DNA of 64,000 nt from Nonomuraea corallina. GTDB lineage: Bacteria > Actinomycetota > Actinomycetes > Streptosporangiales > Streptosporangiaceae. Within the stretch, counting starts at the first letter, position 1. Every line of letters begins with the position of its first letter. Shown piece by piece: positions 33,814 through 42,679 of the stretch. The position numbers were made by a program, and so were the translations under genes. The stretch is taken from positions 1 to 64,000 of the forward strand of contig NZ_JAPNNL010000001.1 of assembly GCF_027620315.1 (NCBI RefSeq), given 5' to 3'. The notes beneath the pieces were generated by a model. That model did not search any database. It was not told the DNA's origin and saw nothing but the letters and a program-made list of their open reading frames with translations.

Positions 33814-35535
33814 ATGGGGGACATCGGCCGTTCGGCGGCGGGACGCGAACTGGGCATGCGGCGCGCCATCTCGCGCCGCGACTTCTTCGACGGGGTGGCG
33901 GTGACGGCGGGGGTCGCGGCCGTGGGCGTCCCGGAAGCGGCCGGGACCGCCTACGCGGCCGCGTCGGCCCCGGCGCCGGCCGGGTTCCACGGCGGCACCT
34001 CCCAGGCGCTCAGCGTGCTCCACGCGCTGCGGGACGGCCGCTTCTGGCAGCACGCGGACCCGCCCGTGCCGACCGGGGAGTCCTACGACCTGGTGGTGGT
34101 CGGCGCCGGGCTGAGCGGGGTGAGCGCGGCCCACGAGTGGCTGCGCCGCCACCCGCGCGCGCGGGTGCTGATCCTCGACAACCACGAGGTCGCCGGCGGC
34201 CACGCGCAGCGCCCCGGCTCCGGCTGGACGGCGGCGCCCGCGAGCTGGACCCCGGAGTTCGGCGAGCTGCTCGACCGGCTGGGCCTCGCGGCGACCCCGT
34301 GCCAGGAGTGCGGCGCCGACGACAGCGTGATGTGCGACCGCGAGACCTTCCCCGTCGAGACCCTGGTGAGCACCGGCGCGCCCGTGGACGGGTGGATCGG
34401 CCGGCTGCCCGTCGCCGACGACGCCAGGGCGGATCTGCTCCGCCTGTACGCGGGCGGGCCCGACCCGTTCCCCGGGCTCTCGCCCGAGGACAAGCAGGAG
34501 CGCCTGGCCGGGCTCACCTACTCCCGCTACCTGCTGGAGACGCTGGGGGTGCACCCGGACGCGGAGCGGTTCTGCCGGACCATGCCCAGCGCCGCCTGGG
34601 GGTACGACGCCCGGGCCCTGGGGGCGGTGGACGCCTGGGGGCTCGGCTATCCCGGCTTCGCCGGGCTCGGCCTGGACGCGGGCAAGCCCTCACCGTTCAA
34701 CGCGCCCACGGTCGCCAAGGAGTGGGGCACGGCCGGCCGGGTCGCGCACCTGCCGGGCGGGCTGCACGGGCTGCTCCGGGCGATGCTGGACGGGCTGGGA
34801 CGCAAGGTCCGGCTGCGGCTGTCCAGCCCGGTCGTCTCGGTGCGCAACGACGGCCCGGCCGAGACCGCGGCCTCCGCCACCGTCGGCTACTTCGACGGCC
34901 ACGAGGTCAGGTCCGTCGGCGCCGGGGCGGTGATCCTGGCCTGCTGGCACGCGGTCGTCCCGCACCTCGTCCCCGACCTGCCCGGCGACCAGCGCGAGGC
35001 GCTGCGCGCGGCGGTCAAGACGCCGCTGGTGGAGGCCGTGGTGCGGCTGCGGAGCGGGGACGCCTGGCGGCGGCTCGGCGTCGCCCGCACCCGCTGGACC
35101 GGGGCGTACTGGAGCCTGAGCGAGCTGGTGCGCCACTCCGGCGACGGCGTCACGGCGCGCCTGGTGGCCGCGCCCTGCCGGTCGGAGCTGGGCCCGGCCG
35201 AAGGATCGGCCGCCGGGCGTCAGGCGCTGCTGCGCACCCCGTACGAGACGCTGGAGTTCTCGGCGCGTGACCAGCTCGCGCGGCTGCTCGGGCCTGCCGG
35301 GTTCGATCCCGGCAGGGACGTCGAGGCGGTCGCGGTCTACCGCTGGGGCCATGGGTACTCGCCCGAATACTGCCGTCCCTGGCACGCGTTCCACCCCGAC
35401 GGGCCGTCACCGGCCGAGACGGCGCGCAGGCGGTTCGGCAGGATCGCCCTGGCCGGGTCGGACTCGGCGCCCGCCGCCAGGGCGGACGCGGCCGTCACCG
35501 CCGCCTGCCGGGCCGTGCGGGAACTGGCGGGCTGA
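33814..35535 (+). CDS. Tat-exported FAD-dependent amine oxidase, spermidine-dehydrogenase-like
   Basis: 573 residues. An N-terminal stretch RELGMRRAISRRDFFDGVAV holds a twin-arginine motif followed by a hydrophobic segment, as in spermidine dehydrogenases. The FAD Rossmann motif is YDLVVVGAGLSGVSAAHEW near residue 89. RVAHLPGGLHGLLRAML and the C-terminal GRIALAGSDSAP are FAD-contact regions. The likely reaction is oxidation of a polyamine or related amine; substrate unproven. Gene stands alone with about 270 bp of upstream sequence. A GATGAT hexamer lies 6 nt before the ATG with no Shine-Dalgarno. Confidence 0.85.
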   Translation: MGDIGRSAAGRELGMRRAISRRDFFDGVAVTAGVAAVGVPEAAGTAYAAASAPAPAGFHGGTSQALSVLHALRDGRFWQHADPPVPTGESYDLVVVGAGLSGVSAAHEWLRRHPRARVLILDNHEVAGGHAQRPGSGWTAAPASWTPEFGELLDRLGLAATPCQECGADDSVMCDRETFPVETLVSTGAPVDGWIGRLPVADDARADLLRLYAGGPDPFPGLSPEDKQERLAGLTYSRYLLETLGVHPDAERFCRTMPSAAWGYDARALGAVDAWGLGYPGFAGLGLDAGKPSPFNAPTVAKEWGTAGRVAHLPGGLHGLLRAMLDGLGRKVRLRLSSPVVSVRNDGPAETAASATVGYFDGHEVRSVGAGAVILACWHAVVPHLVPDLPGDQREALRAAVKTPLVEAVVRLRSGDAWRRLGVARTRWTGAYWSLSELVRHSGDGVTARLVAAPCRSELGPAEGSAAGRQALLRTPYETLEFSARDQLARLLGPAGFDPGRDVEAVAVYRWGHGYSPEYCRPWHAFHPDGPSPAETARRRFGRIALAGSDSAPAARADAAVTAACRAVRELAG

Positions 35536-35708: not shown

Positions 35709-37901
35709 ATGGGCTCGCAAAACCGGTCAATTCGGTTCAAGATCTTCTTATTGCTGCTGTTACCCCTCCTGTCCTTGAGCGCGCTCTGGGGCTTCGTGCT
35801 CAACCTCACCGTGAGCGACGGCTGGTCGTTGCTGCGCGGCGACACCCTCTACCGGACGGTCGGCGTCACCTCCACCGACCTGGGCGTCGAACTCCAGGCC
35901 GAGCGGGAGCGCACGCTGATCAAGCTCACCGACGGTAGGCCCAGCGCCGAGCTCGGCGAGCAGCGCGGGCGCACCGACGCCGCGCTCAACGCCTTCCGCG
36001 CGGCCATCGCCGAGGCCGACGTCGACCTCGCCGACGGCCTGCGCACCCCGCTGAGCACCCTGCAGGCCGAACTGTCCCGGCTCCCCGCCATCCGCACCGG
36101 CGTCGACGGCGGCTTCAGCACCAGGATGCTCGGCCTCAACGAGTACAACCGGGTGCTCGACGCCATGTACCGGTTCTACGACCACCTCGCCCCCGCCCCC
36201 GAACTGGCCGTCTACCAGCAGGTCGCCGCGCTGCAGACGATGAGCAACGCGCACGAGTTCCTGCTCAGGGAGCACGCCCTCATCCGCGCCGCCCAGCTCG
36301 ACGGCCGGATCACCGAGCCCGAGGCGGCCGCGTTCACCGAGTACGCCTCCTCCAGGAAGTTCCTGCACGCGCGCGGTCAGGCGAGCCTCGACGTCGAGCT
36401 GCGCCGGCCGTACGAGGAGCTCTTCAAGAGCGAGGCGTTCCTGACCTTCGCCACCATGGAGGCCAGGATCATCAGGAGCGGCGCGCCGCCCCCCGCCGCC
36501 ACGAGCTGGAACGACGCCACCGGCGAGGTGATCGCCCAGCTCGACGCGATCAGCGCCAGGACGGCCGCCCAGCTGGGCGGCAGGGCCGCCGACGCGGCCA
36601 CCGCCACCCAGATCCAGATCGGCGTCGCCGGCGGCGTCGGCCTCGTCGCCGTGCTCGCCTCCATCATCATCTCGGTGCGCTTCGGACGCCGGCTCGGCGC
36701 CGAGCTGGCCGGGCTGCGCTCGGCCGCCGTCGAGCTGTCCGAGCGGCGCCTGCCCGAGCTGGTCAGGCGGCTCAGCCGGGGCGAGGAGGTCGACGTCGCC
36801 GAGGAGGCCAAGCCGATCCAGGTCAGCGGCTCCGCGGAGATCAGCGACGTCGCGGGCGCGTTCGGCGCGGTCCAGGCCACGGCGGTGCGCGCCGCCGTCG
36901 GCCAGGCGGCGCTGCGCCGCGGGCTCGGCCAGGTCTTCCTCAACCTCGCCAGGCGCAAGCAGGGCCTGCTGCACCGCCAGCTGTCGGTGCTCGACGGCAT
37001 GCAGCGGCGCACCCACGACCCGGACCAGCTGGAGGAGCTCTTCCGGCTCGACCACCTCACCACCCGCATGCGACGGCACGCGGAGAGCCTGATCATCCTG
37101 TCCGGCTCGGCTCCCGGCCGGGCCTGGCGCAAGCCGGTGCCGGCGATCGACATCGTCCGGGCGGCCATCGCCGAGGTGGAGGACTACACCCGGGTCGACG
37201 TGGCCAACATGCCCGGCAGCGCGATCGACGGCCTGGCCGCCGCCGACCTCACCCACCTGATCGCCGAGCTGGTGGAGAACGCCACGATCTACTCGCCGCC
37301 CGACACCGCGGTCCAGGTCCGCGGCGACCGCGTCAGCAACGGCTACTCCGTCGAGGTGGAGGACCGCGGGCTCGGGCTGCAGCAGGAGGAGTACGACGCC
37401 TACAACCGCATGCTGGCGGACCCTCCGGAGTTCGACCTGGCCGACAGCGACAGGCTCGGCCTGTTCGTCGTCGCCAAGCTGGCGCAGCGGCACTCCATCA
37501 AGGTGCTGCTGCGGCGATCACCGTTCGGCGGCACCACCGCCATCGTGTTCGTGCCGGACAAGCTCGTCTCCGACCAGCGGGAACTGCCCCCCGCCGCGGA
37601 CGACGGGCTGCCATCACTGCCGAGCCGGACCAGAAGGAAGGCCCTGGCGGTCGTGAGCGGCACGCACGCGGGCTTGCCAAGGCGGGTCCGGCAGGCCACA
37701 TTGTCATCCCAAAAGTCATCCCGACAGTCATCCCGACAGTCATCCCTAGAGTCACCCCGGCTCGATCACGGCCAGCCGTCCGAGCCGGAGCCAGAGCGGA
37801 AGAACGAACGCTCTCCCGACGAGGTGCGCAACCTGTTCTCCGCGTTCCAGCGGGGAACCCAGCGCGCCCGAGAAGAAGCTGATGAGGAGGGGGAGGCATG
37901 A
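35709..37901 (+). CDS. cvnA: Conservon sensor kinase-like protein CvnA (NIT-HAMP-HATPase)
   Basis: 730 residues from ATG 35709, supported by GAGG 8 nt upstream. N-terminal membrane helix (IFLLLLLPLLSLSALWGFVL), an exported nitrate/nitrite-sensing-like helical domain (residues 40-310), a second helix (GVGLVAVLASIIISVRFG), a HAMP-like region, an H-box-like LDHLTTRMRRHAES, and a HATPase domain (HLIAELVENATIYSPPDTAV, VEDRGLGL, RSPFGGTTAIVFV). The tail has GLPRRVR and SSRQ repeats. Codons 14 and 18 are TTA, very rare in this DNA. Stop overlaps cvnB as ATGA. With cvnBCD it forms the Streptomyces-type conservon, likened to a membrane GPCR/G-protein module. Confidence 0.95.
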   Translation: MGSQNRSIRFKIFLLLLLPLLSLSALWGFVLNLTVSDGWSLLRGDTLYRTVGVTSTDLGVELQAERERTLIKLTDGRPSAELGEQRGRTDAALNAFRAAIAEADVDLADGLRTPLSTLQAELSRLPAIRTGVDGGFSTRMLGLNEYNRVLDAMYRFYDHLAPAPELAVYQQVAALQTMSNAHEFLLREHALIRAAQLDGRITEPEAAAFTEYASSRKFLHARGQASLDVELRRPYEELFKSEAFLTFATMEARIIRSGAPPPAATSWNDATGEVIAQLDAISARTAAQLGGRAADAATATQIQIGVAGGVGLVAVLASIIISVRFGRRLGAELAGLRSAAVELSERRLPELVRRLSRGEEVDVAEEAKPIQVSGSAEISDVAGAFGAVQATAVRAAVGQAALRRGLGQVFLNLARRKQGLLHRQLSVLDGMQRRTHDPDQLEELFRLDHLTTRMRRHAESLIILSGSAPGRAWRKPVPAIDIVRAAIAEVEDYTRVDVANMPGSAIDGLAAADLTHLIAELVENATIYSPPDTAVQVRGDRVSNGYSVEVEDRGLGLQQEEYDAYNRMLADPPEFDLADSDRLGLFVVAKLAQRHSIKVLLRRSPFGGTTAIVFVPDKLVSDQRELPPAADDGLPSLPSRTRRKALAVVSGTHAGLPRRVRQATLSSQKSSRQSSRQSSLESPRLDHGQPSEPEPERKNERSPDEVRNLFSAFQRGTQRAREEADEEGEA
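37703..37762. repeat. 12-bp tandem repeat in cvnA tail
   Basis: Five copies of a 12-bp unit (tcatcccgacag and variants) encode a serine-rich tail of CvnA, of the type SSRQ. The tract is richer in A/T than the rest of the gene. The unit is divisible by 3, so slippage changes tail length only. Confidence 0.8.
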
Positions 37902-38302
37902 GCGTGCCGACGACCAACACCGGTGAGCTGAACTGGCTCCTTGACGACCTGACGACCCGGGTGGGCGCCGTCAGGCAGGCGGTCATCCTGTCGACCGACG
38001 GCCTGGCCGTCGGCTACTCCAAGGGACTGACCCGCGAGGACGCCGAGCACCTGTCCGCCGTGGCCGCCGGTTTCCAGAGCCTGGCCCGGGGCACCGGCCG
38101 CCACTTCGGCGGCGGTGACGTACGCCAGACCATCGTGGAGATGGAATCGGCGTTCCTGTTCGTCACGGCCGCCGGCCAGGGCACGTGCCTGGCCGTGCTC
38201 GCCGACGCCAACGTCGACGTGGGCCACATCGCCTACGAGATGGCGATGCTGGTCAAGCGGGTCGGCCAGCACATCACGACCAATCCCCGAGCGATGCCAT
38301 GA
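37898..38302 (+). CDS. cvnB: Roadblock/LC7 domain protein CvnB
   Basis: 134 residues of a roadblock/longin-type fold: LNWLLDDLTTRVGAVRQAVI, LSTDGLAVGYSKGLTREDAE, HLSAVAAGFQSLARGTGRHF, AFLFVTAAGQGTCLAVLADA, GHIAYEMAMLVKRVGQH. In conservons it is thought to interact with the small GTPase CvnD (family knowledge). Starts and stops overlap cvnA and cvnC as ATGA, indicating coupling. Confidence 0.96.
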   Translation: MSVPTTNTGELNWLLDDLTTRVGAVRQAVILSTDGLAVGYSKGLTREDAEHLSAVAAGFQSLARGTGRHFGGGDVRQTIVEMESAFLFVTAAGQGTCLAVLADANVDVGHIAYEMAMLVKRVGQHITTNPRAMP

Positions 38303-38661
38303 GCGATACCCCGCAGTGGCTGGACGAGGACGCGGGGCCGATCGTGCGGCCCTACGCCCTCATCCGAGGTCGTACGAGGTCGTCGGGGGACAGTCTCGAC
38401 CTCGTCGCGACCGTCCGCGCCGTGGGGGACGCTCCGGATGACCTCTCCCCCGAGCAGTCGCTCATCCTGAGGGCGGCTCGCGCCCCGATCTCGGTGGCCG
38501 ACGTGGCCGTCGAGGTCGACCTGCCTGTCGGCGTCGTCCGGGTGCTCCTGGGCGACATGCGTGACCAAGGGCTCATCTCGGTATCGGCCCCCTCCGCGGC
38601 CGGATCGCGCCCGAGTGAGGGCATTCTCAAGGAAGTGATCAATGGACTCCGTGCTCTCTGA
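38299..38661 (+). CDS. cvnC: DUF742 protein CvnC
   Basis: 120 residues. N-terminal WLDEDAGPIVRPYALIRGRT, central helical segments with a winged-helix-like pattern (APISVADVAVEVDLPVGVVR, VLLGDMRDQGLI) and the invariant ending VINGLRAL. Role in the conservon is unclear; DUF742 may bind DNA or partners. The ATG overlaps the cvnB stop, and its 3' end overlaps cvnD by 20 bp. Confidence 0.95.
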   Translation: MSDTPQWLDEDAGPIVRPYALIRGRTRSSGDSLDLVATVRAVGDAPDDLSPEQSLILRAARAPISVADVAVEVDLPVGVVRVLLGDMRDQGLISVSAPSAAGSRPSEGILKEVINGLRAL

Positions 38662-39214
38662 GGACCCCGTCGCGCTCAAGATCCTCATCGCGGGCGGCTT
38701 CGGCGTGGGCAAGACCACCCTGGTGGGATCGATCAGCGAGATCAGGCCGCTGCGCACGGAAGAGGTGCTGTCCGACCGCGGGGTCGGCGTCGACGATCTC
38801 GACGGCGTCGAGGCCAAGACCACCACGACCGTGGCGATGGACTTCGGCCGCATCACGATCCGCGAAGGGCTGGTCGTCTACCTGTTCGGCACGCCCGGTC
38901 AGGAGCGGTTCTGGTTCATGTGGGACGAGCTGTCCTACGGCGCGCTGGGCGCGGTGGTGATCGCCGACACCCGGCGGCTGACCGACTGCTTCCCCTCGGT
39001 CGACTACTTCGAGCAGCGCGGCACGCCGTTCGTGGTGGCGGTCAACTGCTTCGACGGCGCCGACCGGCACAGCGTGGACGACGTGCGCATCGCCCTCGAC
39101 CTGGACGACGACGTGCCCGTGATGCTGTGCGACGTGCGGCGGCGCACCTCGGCCAAGGAAGTCATGATCACGCTCGTGGAGCACTCGCTCCGCACGCTGA
39201 CCACGACCGGCTAG
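38642..39214 (+). CDS. cvnD: Conservon small GTPase CvnD
   Basis: 190 residues with GTPase motifs: G1 GGFGVGKTT at residues 18-26 (K24), G2/switch region TTTTVAMDFG, G3 FGTPGQERF, and G4-like NCFDGAD in place of NKxD. Such proteins form the GTP-hydrolysing arm of cvn modules. It overlaps cvnC by 20 bp and its stop overlaps the end of the convergent cvnC2 by 4 bp. Confidence 0.96.
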   Translation: MDSVLSEDPVALKILIAGGFGVGKTTLVGSISEIRPLRTEEVLSDRGVGVDDLDGVEAKTTTTVAMDFGRITIREGLVVYLFGTPGQERFWFMWDELSYGALGAVVIADTRRLTDCFPSVDYFEQRGTPFVVAVNCFDGADRHSVDDVRIALDLDDDVPVMLCDVRRRTSAKEVMITLVEHSLRTLTTTG

Positions 39215-39597
39215 AGCGCGCGCAGGCCGTTGATCACTTCACGCAGCAGGCTCTCCGAAGGCGTCGCGGCCTTGGACCGCGGCGCCTTCACCGCCACCAG
39301 GCCGTAGTCGAGCAGGTCGCCGAGCAGCACCCTGACCACCGCCACCGGCAGGTCGAGCTCGGCCGCGACCTCGGCGACCGGCCTGGCGTGCTGGACCAGG
39401 CAGCCCAGCAGCCGGCGGTGCTGGACGCCCAGCTCCGCCTTCGGCGGCGCCGGCCGGCCGGTGAGCGACACGGTGGCCAGCAGGTCGAGCCCGGTGGACA
39501 GCGCCTTGGCAGCGGGCCTGGTGCGTCCGCGGGTCACCGCGTACGGGCGCACGACCGGCCCGGCCTCCTCGTCGACCCACTCGTGCTCGCGGCTCAC
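39211..39597 (-). CDS. Second DUF742 protein (CvnC-like) of a reduced conservon
   Basis: 128 residues. WVDEEAGPVVRPYAVTRGRT matches the N-terminus of the plus-strand CvnC, and both end VINGLRAL; the middle (PVAEVAAELDLPVAVVRVLLG) is alike with several changes. It starts by ATGA overlap with the upstream second CvnA-like gene. No roadblock or GTPase gene accompanies it. The 3' end overlaps the convergent cvnD by 4 bp, so the two conservons are locked tail to tail. Confidence 0.93.
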   Translation of the reverse strand: MSREHEWVDEEAGPVVRPYAVTRGRTRPAAKALSTGLDLLATVSLTGRPAPPKAELGVQHRRLLGCLVQHARPVAEVAAELDLPVAVVRVLLGDLLDYGLVAVKAPRSKAATPSESLLREVINGLRAL

Positions 39598-41849
39598 GAT
39601 GGCGTCCCCCCGTCCTGGTCACTGTCCTGACGTCCGCGCTGCCAGCCCGACTGGAGCGAGGAGAGCAGCGCCCTGGTCTCCTCCGGCGAGCGTTCCCGCG
39701 CCTGCTCCCCGGCGGCCGGCGGGCCGACCTGAGGCGCCTGATCCGGGACGCGCTTGCTGGTCCGCACCCGGCGCGGCAGACCGGAGTCCTGGGCCTGCTC
39801 GGGAGCGCGCTTGCTGGTCCGGACCCGGCGCGGCAGCCCGCCGGGTCCGGAGCTGCGGGCGAGCCGGACGTCCGCGGGCGCGCCGCCCTCCGGCGGCGCC
39901 TCCCTGCCGGCGGCCGACGCCGCGACGGACTCCAGCTCGGGCGGCTCGGGGGGCCGGATCGCGGGCATCGGCTGGATCAGGTGCGCGGGCACCAGCACGA
40001 TCACCGTGGTCCCCCCGTACGGCGACGGCTTGAGCGTGACGCTCACCCCGTGCCTGGCCGCCAGCATGCCGACCACCGCGAAGCCGAGCTGCTCGGTCCG
40101 CGCCGGGTCGAACTCGGGCGGGCCGGCCAGCCGCCGGTTGACGGCGTCCCTGGCCTCGTCCGTCATGCCCAGCCCGCGGTCCTCGATCTCGACGGCGAAG
40201 CCCCTGCCGACCAGATCGCCGCGGACCGACACCTCGCTGCCGGGCGCGGAGAAGGCGGCCGCGTTCTCGATCAGCTCGGCGAACAGGTGCATGAGGTCGG
40301 CCACCGCCTCGCCTCCGACGCCGGACTCCGGCATCGGGTAGACGCGCACCCGGGTGTACTCCTCGACCTGGGCGGCGGCCCCGCTCAGCACCTCCTCCAC
40401 GCCGATCACGCCGCGCCAGCGCCGGCCGACCGTGCCGCCGGACAGCAGCACCAGGCCCTCGGCGTGCCGACGCATCCGGGTGGTCAGGTGGTCGAGCCTG
40501 AACAGCCGCTCCAGCGCCTCCGGCTCCTCGGTCTCCCGCTGCATCTCGTCCAGCAGCTTGAGCTGGCGCTGGACCAGCGACTGGCTGCGCCTGGCCAGGT
40601 TGCGCAGCGCCTGGGCCACCCCTTCGCGCAGCCGGGCCTGTTCCACGGCGGCGTCGACGGCGGTGGCCCGCACGCTGTCGAACGCGGCCGCCAGGTCGGC
40701 CACCTCGCCGGTGGCGCCCGCGTCCACCCGGATCGGGGGCACCTCGGCGGCGGGGTCCACCGGCTCGCCGCGGCGCAGCTTGCCGACCACGCACGGCAGG
40801 CGCTCCTCGGCCAGCTCCCCGGCGGAGCCGCGCAGCGCCGCCAGCTCGCGGGAGATCCGCCTGCCGACCCGTACCGAGACCACGACGGAGAGGATGACGG
40901 CGACCAGGCCGAGCGCGCCCGCGACGGCGGCGCGCACGATGATGGCCATGCCGGCGGGCTCCATCCGGGCCAGCAGGACGTCACCGGACCGGTAGAGGCC
41001 CTGGGTGAAGTCCTCCAGCACCGGTTCGACCGCGCCCCGCCACTGCCGCAGGTCGACCGGCTGGCCGCCGACGTAGGACTGCAGCGCCCGCTCCATGGAC
41101 CCGTAGGCGCCACTGGCGGCCATGCTCTCGAGCGGGGCGCGCATCTCGGCGTCCAGGTTGGCCAGGGCCTTGGGGAAGAGGTACGTGCGCGCGCCGTCGA
41201 TGCCGGCCAGCAGGTGGACCTCGGTCATGGTCCAGCCGTCGCCGTCCACGGCGGAGTTGCCCGCGACGATCAGGGCGTGCTCGCGGCTGAGCAGCTCGCG
41301 CACCTGCGCGGCCATGATCAGGCCCTGGGCCTGGCGGGCCAGCTCGACGTCGGTGCTGACGGTCATGGCGGAGTAGAGCCGGTCGATGGTGTCCGGGATG
41401 GTGGCGTACTCGCTGATCAGGGTGTGCGGGGCGAGCTGCCGGCCGTCGACCTTGCTCCGGATCTCGGGCAGCCGGTCGAGGACCTTGAGTACCTCGGCGA
41501 GCCGCGCCTTCATGGCGTCGTCGAGCGAGGCCTGGGTGTCCTCGGCCGTCGCGCCGCGCACCAGCCGCTGCTTGACCTCGTCCACCTTGGCGCGGGCCTC
41601 GGCCAGCTTCTTGGCGTCGGTCGAGGTGCCGGCCAGCAGCTCGGCGGAGGCCAGGCGCTCGGCCTGGAGGTTGACCACCAGGAAGTCGGCGTGATCGACG
41701 ATCCCCGTCCAGAAGGTCTCGACCTTGAGAAGGTTGAGCGCCTCCCGTGTCGTCGTGCTCGCGGCGAACCCCCAGAGCGCGACCAGGGAGACCAGGGGGA
41801 TGACGAGCAGCGCCGAGATCTTGAATCGGATGGATCTGCCCGATGCCAT
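39594..41849 (-). CDS. Second conservon sensor kinase-like protein (CvnA-like, NIT-HAMP-HATPase)
   Basis: 751 residues from ATG 41849 (MASGRSIRFKISALLVIPL), with GGAGCAGG upstream. Same layout as the plus-strand CvnA: membrane helix, long exported helical sensor, second helix (AAVAGALGLVAVILSVVVSV), HAMP, H-box LDHLTTRMRRHAE, and ATPase domain (LMHLFAELIENAAAFSAPG, VEIEDRGLGM, SPYGGTTVIVLVPAHL). The tail repeats GLPRRVRTSKR twice. It is linked to a DUF742 gene but not to roadblock or GTPase genes, so it may use CvnB/CvnD of the facing conservon or others elsewhere. Confidence 0.93.
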   Translation of the reverse strand: MASGRSIRFKISALLVIPLVSLVALWGFAASTTTREALNLLKVETFWTGIVDHADFLVVNLQAERLASAELLAGTSTDAKKLAEARAKVDEVKQRLVRGATAEDTQASLDDAMKARLAEVLKVLDRLPEIRSKVDGRQLAPHTLISEYATIPDTIDRLYSAMTVSTDVELARQAQGLIMAAQVRELLSREHALIVAGNSAVDGDGWTMTEVHLLAGIDGARTYLFPKALANLDAEMRAPLESMAASGAYGSMERALQSYVGGQPVDLRQWRGAVEPVLEDFTQGLYRSGDVLLARMEPAGMAIIVRAAVAGALGLVAVILSVVVSVRVGRRISRELAALRGSAGELAEERLPCVVGKLRRGEPVDPAAEVPPIRVDAGATGEVADLAAAFDSVRATAVDAAVEQARLREGVAQALRNLARRSQSLVQRQLKLLDEMQRETEEPEALERLFRLDHLTTRMRRHAEGLVLLSGGTVGRRWRGVIGVEEVLSGAAAQVEEYTRVRVYPMPESGVGGEAVADLMHLFAELIENAAAFSAPGSEVSVRGDLVGRGFAVEIEDRGLGMTDEARDAVNRRLAGPPEFDPARTEQLGFAVVGMLAARHGVSVTLKPSPYGGTTVIVLVPAHLIQPMPAIRPPEPPELESVAASAAGREAPPEGGAPADVRLARSSGPGGLPRRVRTSKRAPEQAQDSGLPRRVRTSKRVPDQAPQVGPPAAGEQARERSPEETRALLSSLQSGWQRGRQDSDQDGGTPS
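39752..39836. repeat. Duplicated GLPRRVRTSKR-coding segment
   Basis: Two near-identical 33-bp segments about 48 bp apart encode GLPRRVRTSKR in the second CvnA tail. The other CvnA has one GLPRRVR. The motif sits in otherwise disordered, Pro/Glu-rich sequence and could be a docking site. Confidence 0.75.
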
Positions 41850-41911: not shown

Positions 41912-42625
41912 TCAACTAGCGATAAATCTGTGATATGTCGGAAATTTAAGGACGCTACCCATCCAGACCACGCGAAGCAGCCAGATCGCCAGCACAGCCA
42001 GCAAAGCCACCTCCGCGCTCAACAGCGCCCGCTCCACCAGTCCGATCATGACCCGCTCCCCCGGCAGCGCCACGTACGTGATCGCCAGCAGCCCGATCCC
42101 GCCCGCCAGGGCCACCCACTCGACGGTCCTGGCCACCGGCCGCCACACCCGGTCGCGGGCCAGCCGGGGCACCAGCAGCGCCCCCGCCGCCGGCAGGCTG
42201 ACGAACGCCGCGATCGACGCGTACCGGTGGATCTGGGCCGCGACCGTCAGGTCGTCGCCGAACGGTGTGGTCGGGACCGCCGCCGCCACCAGCAGCGCCC
42301 CCGACCACACCATGAGCAGCCCCTCCGGCATCCCTCTGACCGGAGCCCCCACCGACCGCAGCCCCGCCAGCAGCGCCAGCGAGCCGAGAGCGACCGCCGC
42401 CATCGCGAACTCCGTGACGCCCCCGCGGCTCGCCACGGCATACTCGCTCACGGTCGCGTTCAGCGGGTCCAGGTATGGACCGGAGCCGAACTGCGCGGCC
42501 ACCACGCCGGACACACCGGTCGTCAGCGCGACGAGCGCGACGATCGGATAGGCCCTCGGGCCCGGGGAGAACCGGCCGCCTCCGGTGAGAGCCGGCGCGG
42601 AGGTTCCCTCGGTCGCTGTGGTCAT
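41912..42625 (-). CDS. DUF998 family membrane protein
   Basis: 237 residues from ATG 42625 (MTTATEGTS). Six or so hydrophobic helices (AYPIVALVALTTGVSGVVAAQ, GLLMVWSGALLVAAAVPTT, WVALAGGIGLLAITYVALP, LLAVLAIWLLRVVWMG) match the DUF998 pattern, including YLDPLNATVSEYAV after the first helix. Function unknown. The last 12 codons are unusually AT-rich. It lies 62 bp upstream of the second cvnA on the same strand and may share its transcript. Confidence 0.88.
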   Translation of the reverse strand: MTTATEGTSAPALTGGGRFSPGPRAYPIVALVALTTGVSGVVAAQFGSGPYLDPLNATVSEYAVASRGGVTEFAMAAVALGSLALLAGLRSVGAPVRGMPEGLLMVWSGALLVAAAVPTTPFGDDLTVAAQIHRYASIAAFVSLPAAGALLVPRLARDRVWRPVARTVEWVALAGGIGLLAITYVALPGERVMIGLVERALLSAEVALLAVLAIWLLRVVWMGSVLKFPTYHRFIAS

Positions 42626-42679
42626 GGCACCGAGTCTTCCCCCGCGACGGCCCGCGGACATCCGGCGTCGTCCCCTACC

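Follow-up and report, generated by a model that had tools for sequence, protein, structure and literature searches.

In Nonomuraea corallina, a complete conservon, or actinobacterial G protein system (AGPS), in which a sensor kinase (CvnA), a roadblock protein (CvnB), a DUF742 protein (CvnC) and a Ras-like GTPase (CvnD) are encoded in one operon, stands tail to tail with a reduced unit that encodes a second sensor kinase and a second DUF742 protein behind a DUF998 gene. Both lie in the window analysed here, the first 64,000 nucleotides of contig NZ_JAPNNL010000001.1 (assembly GCF_027620315.1, forward strand) from a genome of 7.56 Mb (G000); the genes of the plus-strand conservon (conservon 1) are called cvnA1, cvnB1, cvnC1 and cvnD1, those of the minus-strand unit cvnA2 and cvnC2. 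On balance, the reduced unit probably serves as a second receptor arm that acts on the neighbour's CvnD1 and CvnB1. Such sharing of partners, with two membrane sensors converging on one CvnB/CvnD, had been proposed in a sequence-only reading of this DNA, and it finds indirect support in the single cvnD per locus (78 of 78 unique loci), the place of cvnD1 beside cvnA2 (45 of 46 loci), purifying selection on the reduced unit and the retention of a kinase tail that would dock the roadblock protein; the physical link between the two units is what we infer from these observations. Action on CvnD1 is favoured because a kinase and a CvnC, whether the latter is a guanine nucleotide exchange factor (GEF) or a DNA-binding partner of CvnD, need a CvnD from outside the unit, and cvnD1 adjoins.

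Conservation of the convergent layout

A scan with CvnA2 as the sole query and one genome per species gave 46 loci, which hold cvnA2 by selection: 44 from Nonomuraea (among them one listed under [Actinomadura] parvosata), one from Thermoactinospora rubra and one from a Planomonospora. In 45 of these, cvnA2 faces cvnD1-C1-B1-A1, or the contig's share of them, and the contig of the 46th ends just behind cvnC2, so that the convergent layout is not due to chance. When sought in related actinomycetes, the layout was found in all 11 genus genomes sampled, that of the window included, as cvnA2 and a facing cvnA1 with a CvnD1 match between them, and in other Streptosporangiaceae. It is old and is spread over the genus and some of its relatives.

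A search for CvnD1 among 100 family genomes of 68 genera returned a match of at least 79% identity in 37, the window's own genome and two others of the genus included, the next matches reaching 77% at most. Besides the window's own, the 36 loci comprise two from Nonomuraea, both of which carry cvnA2-cvnC2, and 34 from other genera. Among the latter, cvnA2 is present in 21, as A2-B2-C2 in nine, as A2-C2 in ten and without cvnC2 in two; the 13 loci without cvnA2 include six that keep a DUF998 gene near cvnD1, as though left behind, five with neither gene and two on short contigs in which none was seen. This one-way pattern speaks for action of the reduced unit on conservon 1. The Planomonospora reduced unit likewise has a roadblock gene of its own (cvnA2-B2-C2). 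Two loci depart from the common forms: in L064 (8603-13197), two tandem cvnA2-cvnC2 pairs face a single cvnD1, and in L089 (5474-8008), cvnA2 lies in two pieces without cvnC2 and ends against cvnD1, the reduced unit there being perhaps a decaying copy.

In total, 82 loci were annotated, 78 of them unique (L060, L061 and L086 repeat L017, L040 and L050, and L038 is a second contig from the species of L045). When the unique loci were searched with four CvnD proteins and no filtering, each proved to hold a single cvnD, namely the one belonging to conservon 1. cvnA2 is present in 65 of them, accompanied by cvnC2 in 63 and also by cvnB2 in nine, all nine from genera other than Nonomuraea. Of these 65, 64 have the DUF998 gene upstream of cvnA2 in the same orientation, while the contig of the last begins inside cvnA2; a gap of 56 bp separates the two genes in 23 of 42 Nonomuraea loci, and overall the gap ranges from 33 to 911 bp, the largest value belonging to the split cvnA2 of L089.

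The LPxR tail of the kinases

A C-terminal LPxR motif is described as a general trait of conservon kinases (PMC4316618; this and the other papers cited are drawn on in part). The sequence-only reading had pointed to the tail motif GLPRRVR in both kinases of the window; the motif is indeed common to both, and occurs twice in CvnA2, but it marks no special link between them, since LPxR is typical of conservon kinases (PMC4316618). Kinases with a roadblock gene in their operon carry it throughout (76 of 76 full-length CvnA1, nine of nine CvnA2 with a CvnB2), as do all ten kinases of the complete conservons of G000, nine of which were counted within the last 330 residues. Nonomuraea-type CvnA2 aside, it is missing from 27 of 28 kinases without a roadblock gene in the operon, namely 12 of 13 CvnA2 of other genera, eight of eight C22-type and seven of seven C168-type kinases (named after contigs of G000 described below); the single exception, CvnA2 of L069, has an LPxR within a 25-residue tail. 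Nonomuraea-type CvnA2, from Nonomuraea and Thermoactinospora, nonetheless keep the motif in 45 of 45 cases despite the absent roadblock gene. At least three copies are present in 30 of these 45, at least four in 18 and up to ten in the extreme, compared with at most three in the 43 Nonomuraea CvnA1 and only two in the CvnA2 of the window.

These multi-copy tails exceed all of 2000 shuffles. In L012 the array is a tandem repeat at the DNA level with a period of about 27-33 bp, so it may also reflect slippage. In our reading, the roadblock protein would dock onto the tail, which a Nonomuraea-type CvnA2 would need in order to bring in CvnB1 from the neighbouring conservon. All ten roadblock genes of G000 sit in complete conservons, and the CvnA2-CvnC2 pair is therefore without a free CvnB of its own.

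Origin and selection

In a quick kinase tree, built without bootstrap, CvnA2 forms one clade with a support of 100 in the Shimodaira-Hasegawa-like approximate likelihood ratio test (SH-aLRT). CvnC2 also forms one clade (100/99), sister to the CvnC1 proteins minus that of L095 (99/94), and CvnB2 another (89/87). The simplest history, as far as these trees suggest, would be an inverted, tail-to-tail duplication of a conservon before the sampled Streptosporangiaceae genera of this lineage split, with the cvnD copy lost before that split and cvnB2 lost later, as in Nonomuraea; a copy made without cvnD from the start would leave the same picture. On the kinase tree, the presence of CvnB2 takes at least two changes when both gain and loss are permitted, and losses alone would, by our reading of that tree, need three.

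The ratio of non-synonymous to synonymous substitution rates (dN/dS) in close pairs is 0.23-0.63 for cvnA2 (10 pairs) and 0.08-0.57 for cvnC2 (nine pairs), with 0.14-0.52 for cvnA1 and 0.02-0.11 for cvnD1 (10 pairs each). Both frames are uninterrupted in the 43 unique Nonomuraea loci, the cvnA2 of L042 being cut by its contig. Judged from these substitution rates, cvnA2 and cvnC2 are under purifying selection.

The two operons and their border

The genes are listed in Table 1. Gene calls, coordinates and end motifs given in the sequence-only reading all proved correct against open reading frames (ORFs) and Pfam matches, and the ORF coordinates bear out its account of two convergent conservons, with cvnD1 and cvnC2 sharing their last 4 bp (39211-39214). 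The overlap itself is not conserved: across the 43 unique Nonomuraea loci, the spacing between cvnC2 and cvnD1 varies between -23 and +1019 bp, with -4 in ten.

By Pfam match and coordinates, the plus-strand operon is a conservon in the strict sense, with cvnA, cvnB, cvnC and cvnD in order on one strand, and the product of cvnD1 is a GTPase, judging from its P-loop and its kin. On the minus strand, CvnA2 is a CvnA-type kinase by its NIT and HATPase_c domains, its LPxR tail and its position inside the CvnA tree, and CvnC2 belongs to the DUF742 (CvnC) family by Pfam match and tree; VINGLRAL is the C-terminus of both DUF742 proteins. As had been claimed, the reduced unit is without roadblock and GTPase genes: searches of the window found no roadblock (CvnB) gene in its operon, nor was one found in the 43 unique Nonomuraea loci, and no MglA-type GTPase (CvnD) gene was found in the operon in the window. 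The DUF998 gene is probably the first gene of this operon, to judge from its position, with a transcript shared with cvnA2, and its product may form part of the signal input. Upstream of cvnA1 lies a gene for a FAD/NAD-binding protein (window 33814-35535), which stays with the conservon in most Nonomuraea loci.

Table 1. Genes of conservon 1 and of the convergent reduced unit, in window coordinates (GAP, GTPase-activating protein).
Feature	Coordinates	Strand	Basis
cvnA1, sensor kinase	35709..37901	+	Pfam NIT 1.2e-32, HATPase_c 4.5e-10; LPxR motifs in tail
cvnB1, roadblock/LC7 protein, presumed GAP	37898..38302	+	Pfam Robl_LC7 5e-26; GAP by analogy with MfpD
cvnC1, DUF742 protein, presumed GEF or DNA-binding partner of CvnD	38299..38661	+	Pfam DUF742 7.2e-30
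cvnD1, Ras-like (MglA-type) GTPase	38642..39214	+	Pfam ATP_bind_1 1.7e-32; P-loop GGFGVGKTT
cvnC2, DUF742 protein of the reduced convergent unit	39211..39597	-	Pfam DUF742 5.4e-30; clade; winged-helix model
cvnA2, sensor kinase of the reduced unit	39594..41849	-	Pfam NIT 7.1e-24, HATPase_c 4.7e-12; two GLPRRVR copies
DUF998 gene	41912..42661	-	Pfam DUF998 1.7e-23; 62 bp upstream of cvnA2, same strand

Other conservon genes of the genome

G000 holds 12 DUF742, 10 roadblock and 11 CvnD-type genes, and ten complete conservons: one each on C1, C31, C68, C316 and C319, three on C331 and two on C335. What is left over outside them is cvnA2-cvnC2, a cvnA-cvnC pair on C22, a cvnD on C195 and a kinase on C168. 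The C22 pair (L055 4286-6536) has no adjacent cvnB or cvnD; its kinase is without an LPxR tail, and its CvnC is 88-96% identical in seven fetched relatives, more than CvnC2 within the genus. On C195 (L056 1774-2367, a contig of 6,040 bp), the cvnD is accompanied by no other conservon gene, and the next gene resembles an Lrp-type regulator by eye. C168 (L096 4385-6286) encodes a lone CvnA-type kinase without a tail, and C313 (L097 3974-4747) a kinase with a CvnA-like catalytic part (39%), no other conservon gene being present in either fetched stretch. Thirteen genus stretches were picked from the list of kinase matches; seven of them (seven genomes) show a C22-type pair without cvnB or cvnD and six (six genomes) a lone C168-type kinase, counts that give no frequency, as the stretches were chosen by match.

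The CvnC fold

The predicted structure of CvnC2 is a winged helix. Its best matches are an RNA polymerase III subunit, GATOR1 complexes and MarR/ArsR-type repressors, with scores at or near chance, and the Pfam matches of CvnC2 to DprA_WH and HTH_IclR are both below the cut-off. The nearest folds include, with weak scores, chains of the GATOR1 and SEA complexes, which we take to be NPRL2/NPRL3. GATOR1/SEA proteins combine a longin domain, kin of the roadblock domain, with winged helices (PMC3521125), and CvnB together with CvnC might, on the predicted model, be a split counterpart of these proteins. Two roles have been put forward for CvnC: in the Mfp system, where the CvnB-type MfpD is a GAP, MfpC is reported to be a GEF (PMC13343842), and elsewhere CvnC has been proposed as a DNA-binding partner of CvnD (PMC8510531).

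A proposed circuit and its alternatives

As a second receptor arm, CvnA2 would sense a different signal via its own NIT domain, and this signal would pass through CvnC2 to the GTPase CvnD1. The LPxR tail of CvnA2 would dock the neighbour's roadblock protein CvnB1, so that two inputs would be joined at one switch, CvnD1. A wider scheme is possible, if somewhat doubtful, in which a conserved two-receptor, one-GTPase circuit exists in Streptosporangiaceae, with DUF998-CvnA2-CvnC2 as an arm that has no switch of its own and plugs into the adjoining conservon; LPxR would be a dock for the GAP, its copies increased in many Nonomuraea to form a multivalent array capturing CvnB1, and the C22 pair would be a further, distant arm without a tail. 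Should CvnA2 and CvnC2 indeed act on CvnD1, two receptors would meet at a single Ras-like switch in these bacteria, and the LPxR tail would acquire a function. Related loci that lack first the GTPase, then the GAP and then the CvnC gene, together with changes in the kinase tail, suggest which parts depend on which, and a reduced unit beside a complete conservon makes the wiring of conservons easier to test.

Several observations weigh against a receptor arm on CvnD1. The cvnA2-cvnC2 pair is absent in several genera that retain conservon 1 and is therefore dispensable there; cvnA2 and cvnC2 are under weaker constraint than cvnD1 and cvnB1; and, the loci of the CvnA2 scan holding cvnA2 by selection, mere adjacency could account for its staying next to cvnD1. 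The kinase tree groups CvnA2 with the C22 kinases (97) and not directly with CvnA1, and the sister group of CvnB2 is not settled by its tree. As to the tail, one deletion over the cvnA2-cvnB2 border could remove tail and cvnB2 together without any functional link, the tail is also gone in genera without cvnB2 outside Nonomuraea and Thermoactinospora, and independent contrasts between tail and CvnB2 number only three to four (sign test p 0.5). To these are added the cvnD on C195 and the winged-helix fold of CvnC, which lead to two other explanations.

One of them, which we regard as unlikely, is that CvnA2-CvnC2 acts through a GTPase encoded elsewhere, such as the cvnD on C195 or that of another conservon. 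The former lies outside any conservon in G000 and might serve as the partner, and matches of at least 81% are found in 10 of the 11 genus genomes, its own included. However, the genome without one (G006, 98% complete, best match 74%) nevertheless has cvnA2 beside cvnD1 as well as a C22-type pair, and the adjacency of cvnD1 and cvnA2 across the loci of the CvnA2 scan counts against a distant GTPase. No more probable is a unit that works free of any GTPase, its kinase controlling a DNA-binding winged-helix protein, much as in a two-component system but with no receiver domain. The predicted fold could bind DNA without a GTPase, the DprA_WH and HTH_IclR matches below the cut-off fit such binding, a DNA-binding role has been proposed (PMC8510531), and a further A-C pair without adjacent cvnB or cvnD occurs in G000 (C22) and in the fetched stretches of seven relatives. 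Yet subunits of GATOR1, a GTPase regulator, are likewise among the nearest folds, with scores that do not discriminate, MfpC is reported as a GEF (PMC13343842), and the proposed DNA-binding role itself involves CvnD (PMC8510531).

Less probable still is an antagonist or decoy, which the sequence-only reading had raised and for which there is little specific support: CvnA2 and CvnC2 would sequester CvnB1 or CvnD1 and transmit no signal themselves. LPxR arrays of three to ten copies would suit a multivalent sink, and there are fixed changes near the catalytic site of CvnA2. Close to the second glycine box, S580T, D581E, L585F and F586A (CvnA1 numbering) are found in 92-100% of Nonomuraea-type CvnA2, and a helix-1 position that is H in 72 of 76 CvnA1 is Q in all 67 CvnA2. 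The main catalytic motifs are kept, however, namely the N-box, G1 and the histidine of the LDHL motif (67 of 67 CvnA2, 74 of 76 CvnA1), as is the NIT domain, and the helix-1 change does not by itself point to an inactive kinase, because the kinases of five complete conservons of G000 have E at this position. CvnA8, a kinase outside the alignment used here, is reported to autophosphorylate at H183 (PMC13343842). The graded forms over genera (A2-B2-C2, A2-C2, A2 alone, nothing) and the split cvnA2 of L089 might suggest that a duplicated conservon is decaying here and that the reduced unit no longer has a function, but this is very improbable given the uninterrupted Nonomuraea frames, dN/dS below 1, cvnA2 in all 11 genus genomes and a tail motif that has been multiplied and not lost.

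Comparison with known systems

The plus-strand operon is a standard conservon, and the minus-strand genes belong to the CvnA and CvnC families; the minus-strand unit differs from a conservon in lacking cvnB and cvnD, in standing behind a DUF998 gene and in sharing a 3' border with a complete conservon. The sequence-only reading had held that nothing similar was described. This was too strong in view of GTPase loss (PMC4316618) and conservon crosstalk (PMC8510531). The open-access literature searched, which did not include the supplement of cases in PMC4316618, gave no account of a tail-to-tail arrangement or how widely it occurs, of a further loss of cvnB, of a DUF998 gene or of a changed LPxR tail.

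Crosstalk among conservons has been proposed from transcriptomes of cvn8 mutants (PMC8510531); as proposed here, Cvn proteins there would work with partners from other conservons, but no gene layout of the tail-to-tail kind is described in the part of that paper drawn on. Accessory proteins of AGPS, the GAF protein CvnF and the cytochrome P450 CvnE, are encoded four genes from cvnA, beside kinases without a sensory domain (PMC13343842). They too attach an extra input component to a conservon, whereas the extra input here is a whole NIT-domain kinase with a CvnC: both kinases of the window carry a NIT domain, and cvnC2, not a GAF or P450 gene, stands behind cvnD1.

A close parallel is offered by the adjacent duplicated conservons described by Wuichet and Sogaard-Andersen (PMC4316618), some of which have lost one mglA-type gene. 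As in those cases, a neighbouring related copy, here with CvnC2 as sister to CvnC1, is without its GTPase gene. Their GTPase-losing copies keep the MglB gene, giving an MglA:MglB ratio of 1:2, and many roadblock orphans are located among conservon genes (PMC4316618); the reduced copy in Nonomuraea, in contrast, is also without CvnB, which in other genera is kept in nine unique loci. That adjacent duplicates can lose a GTPase gene is thus already known from the part of that work drawn on; what appears new here is how widely the convergent layout occurs, that cvnB has been lost as well, that a DUF998 gene accompanies the unit and that the LPxR tail has changed.

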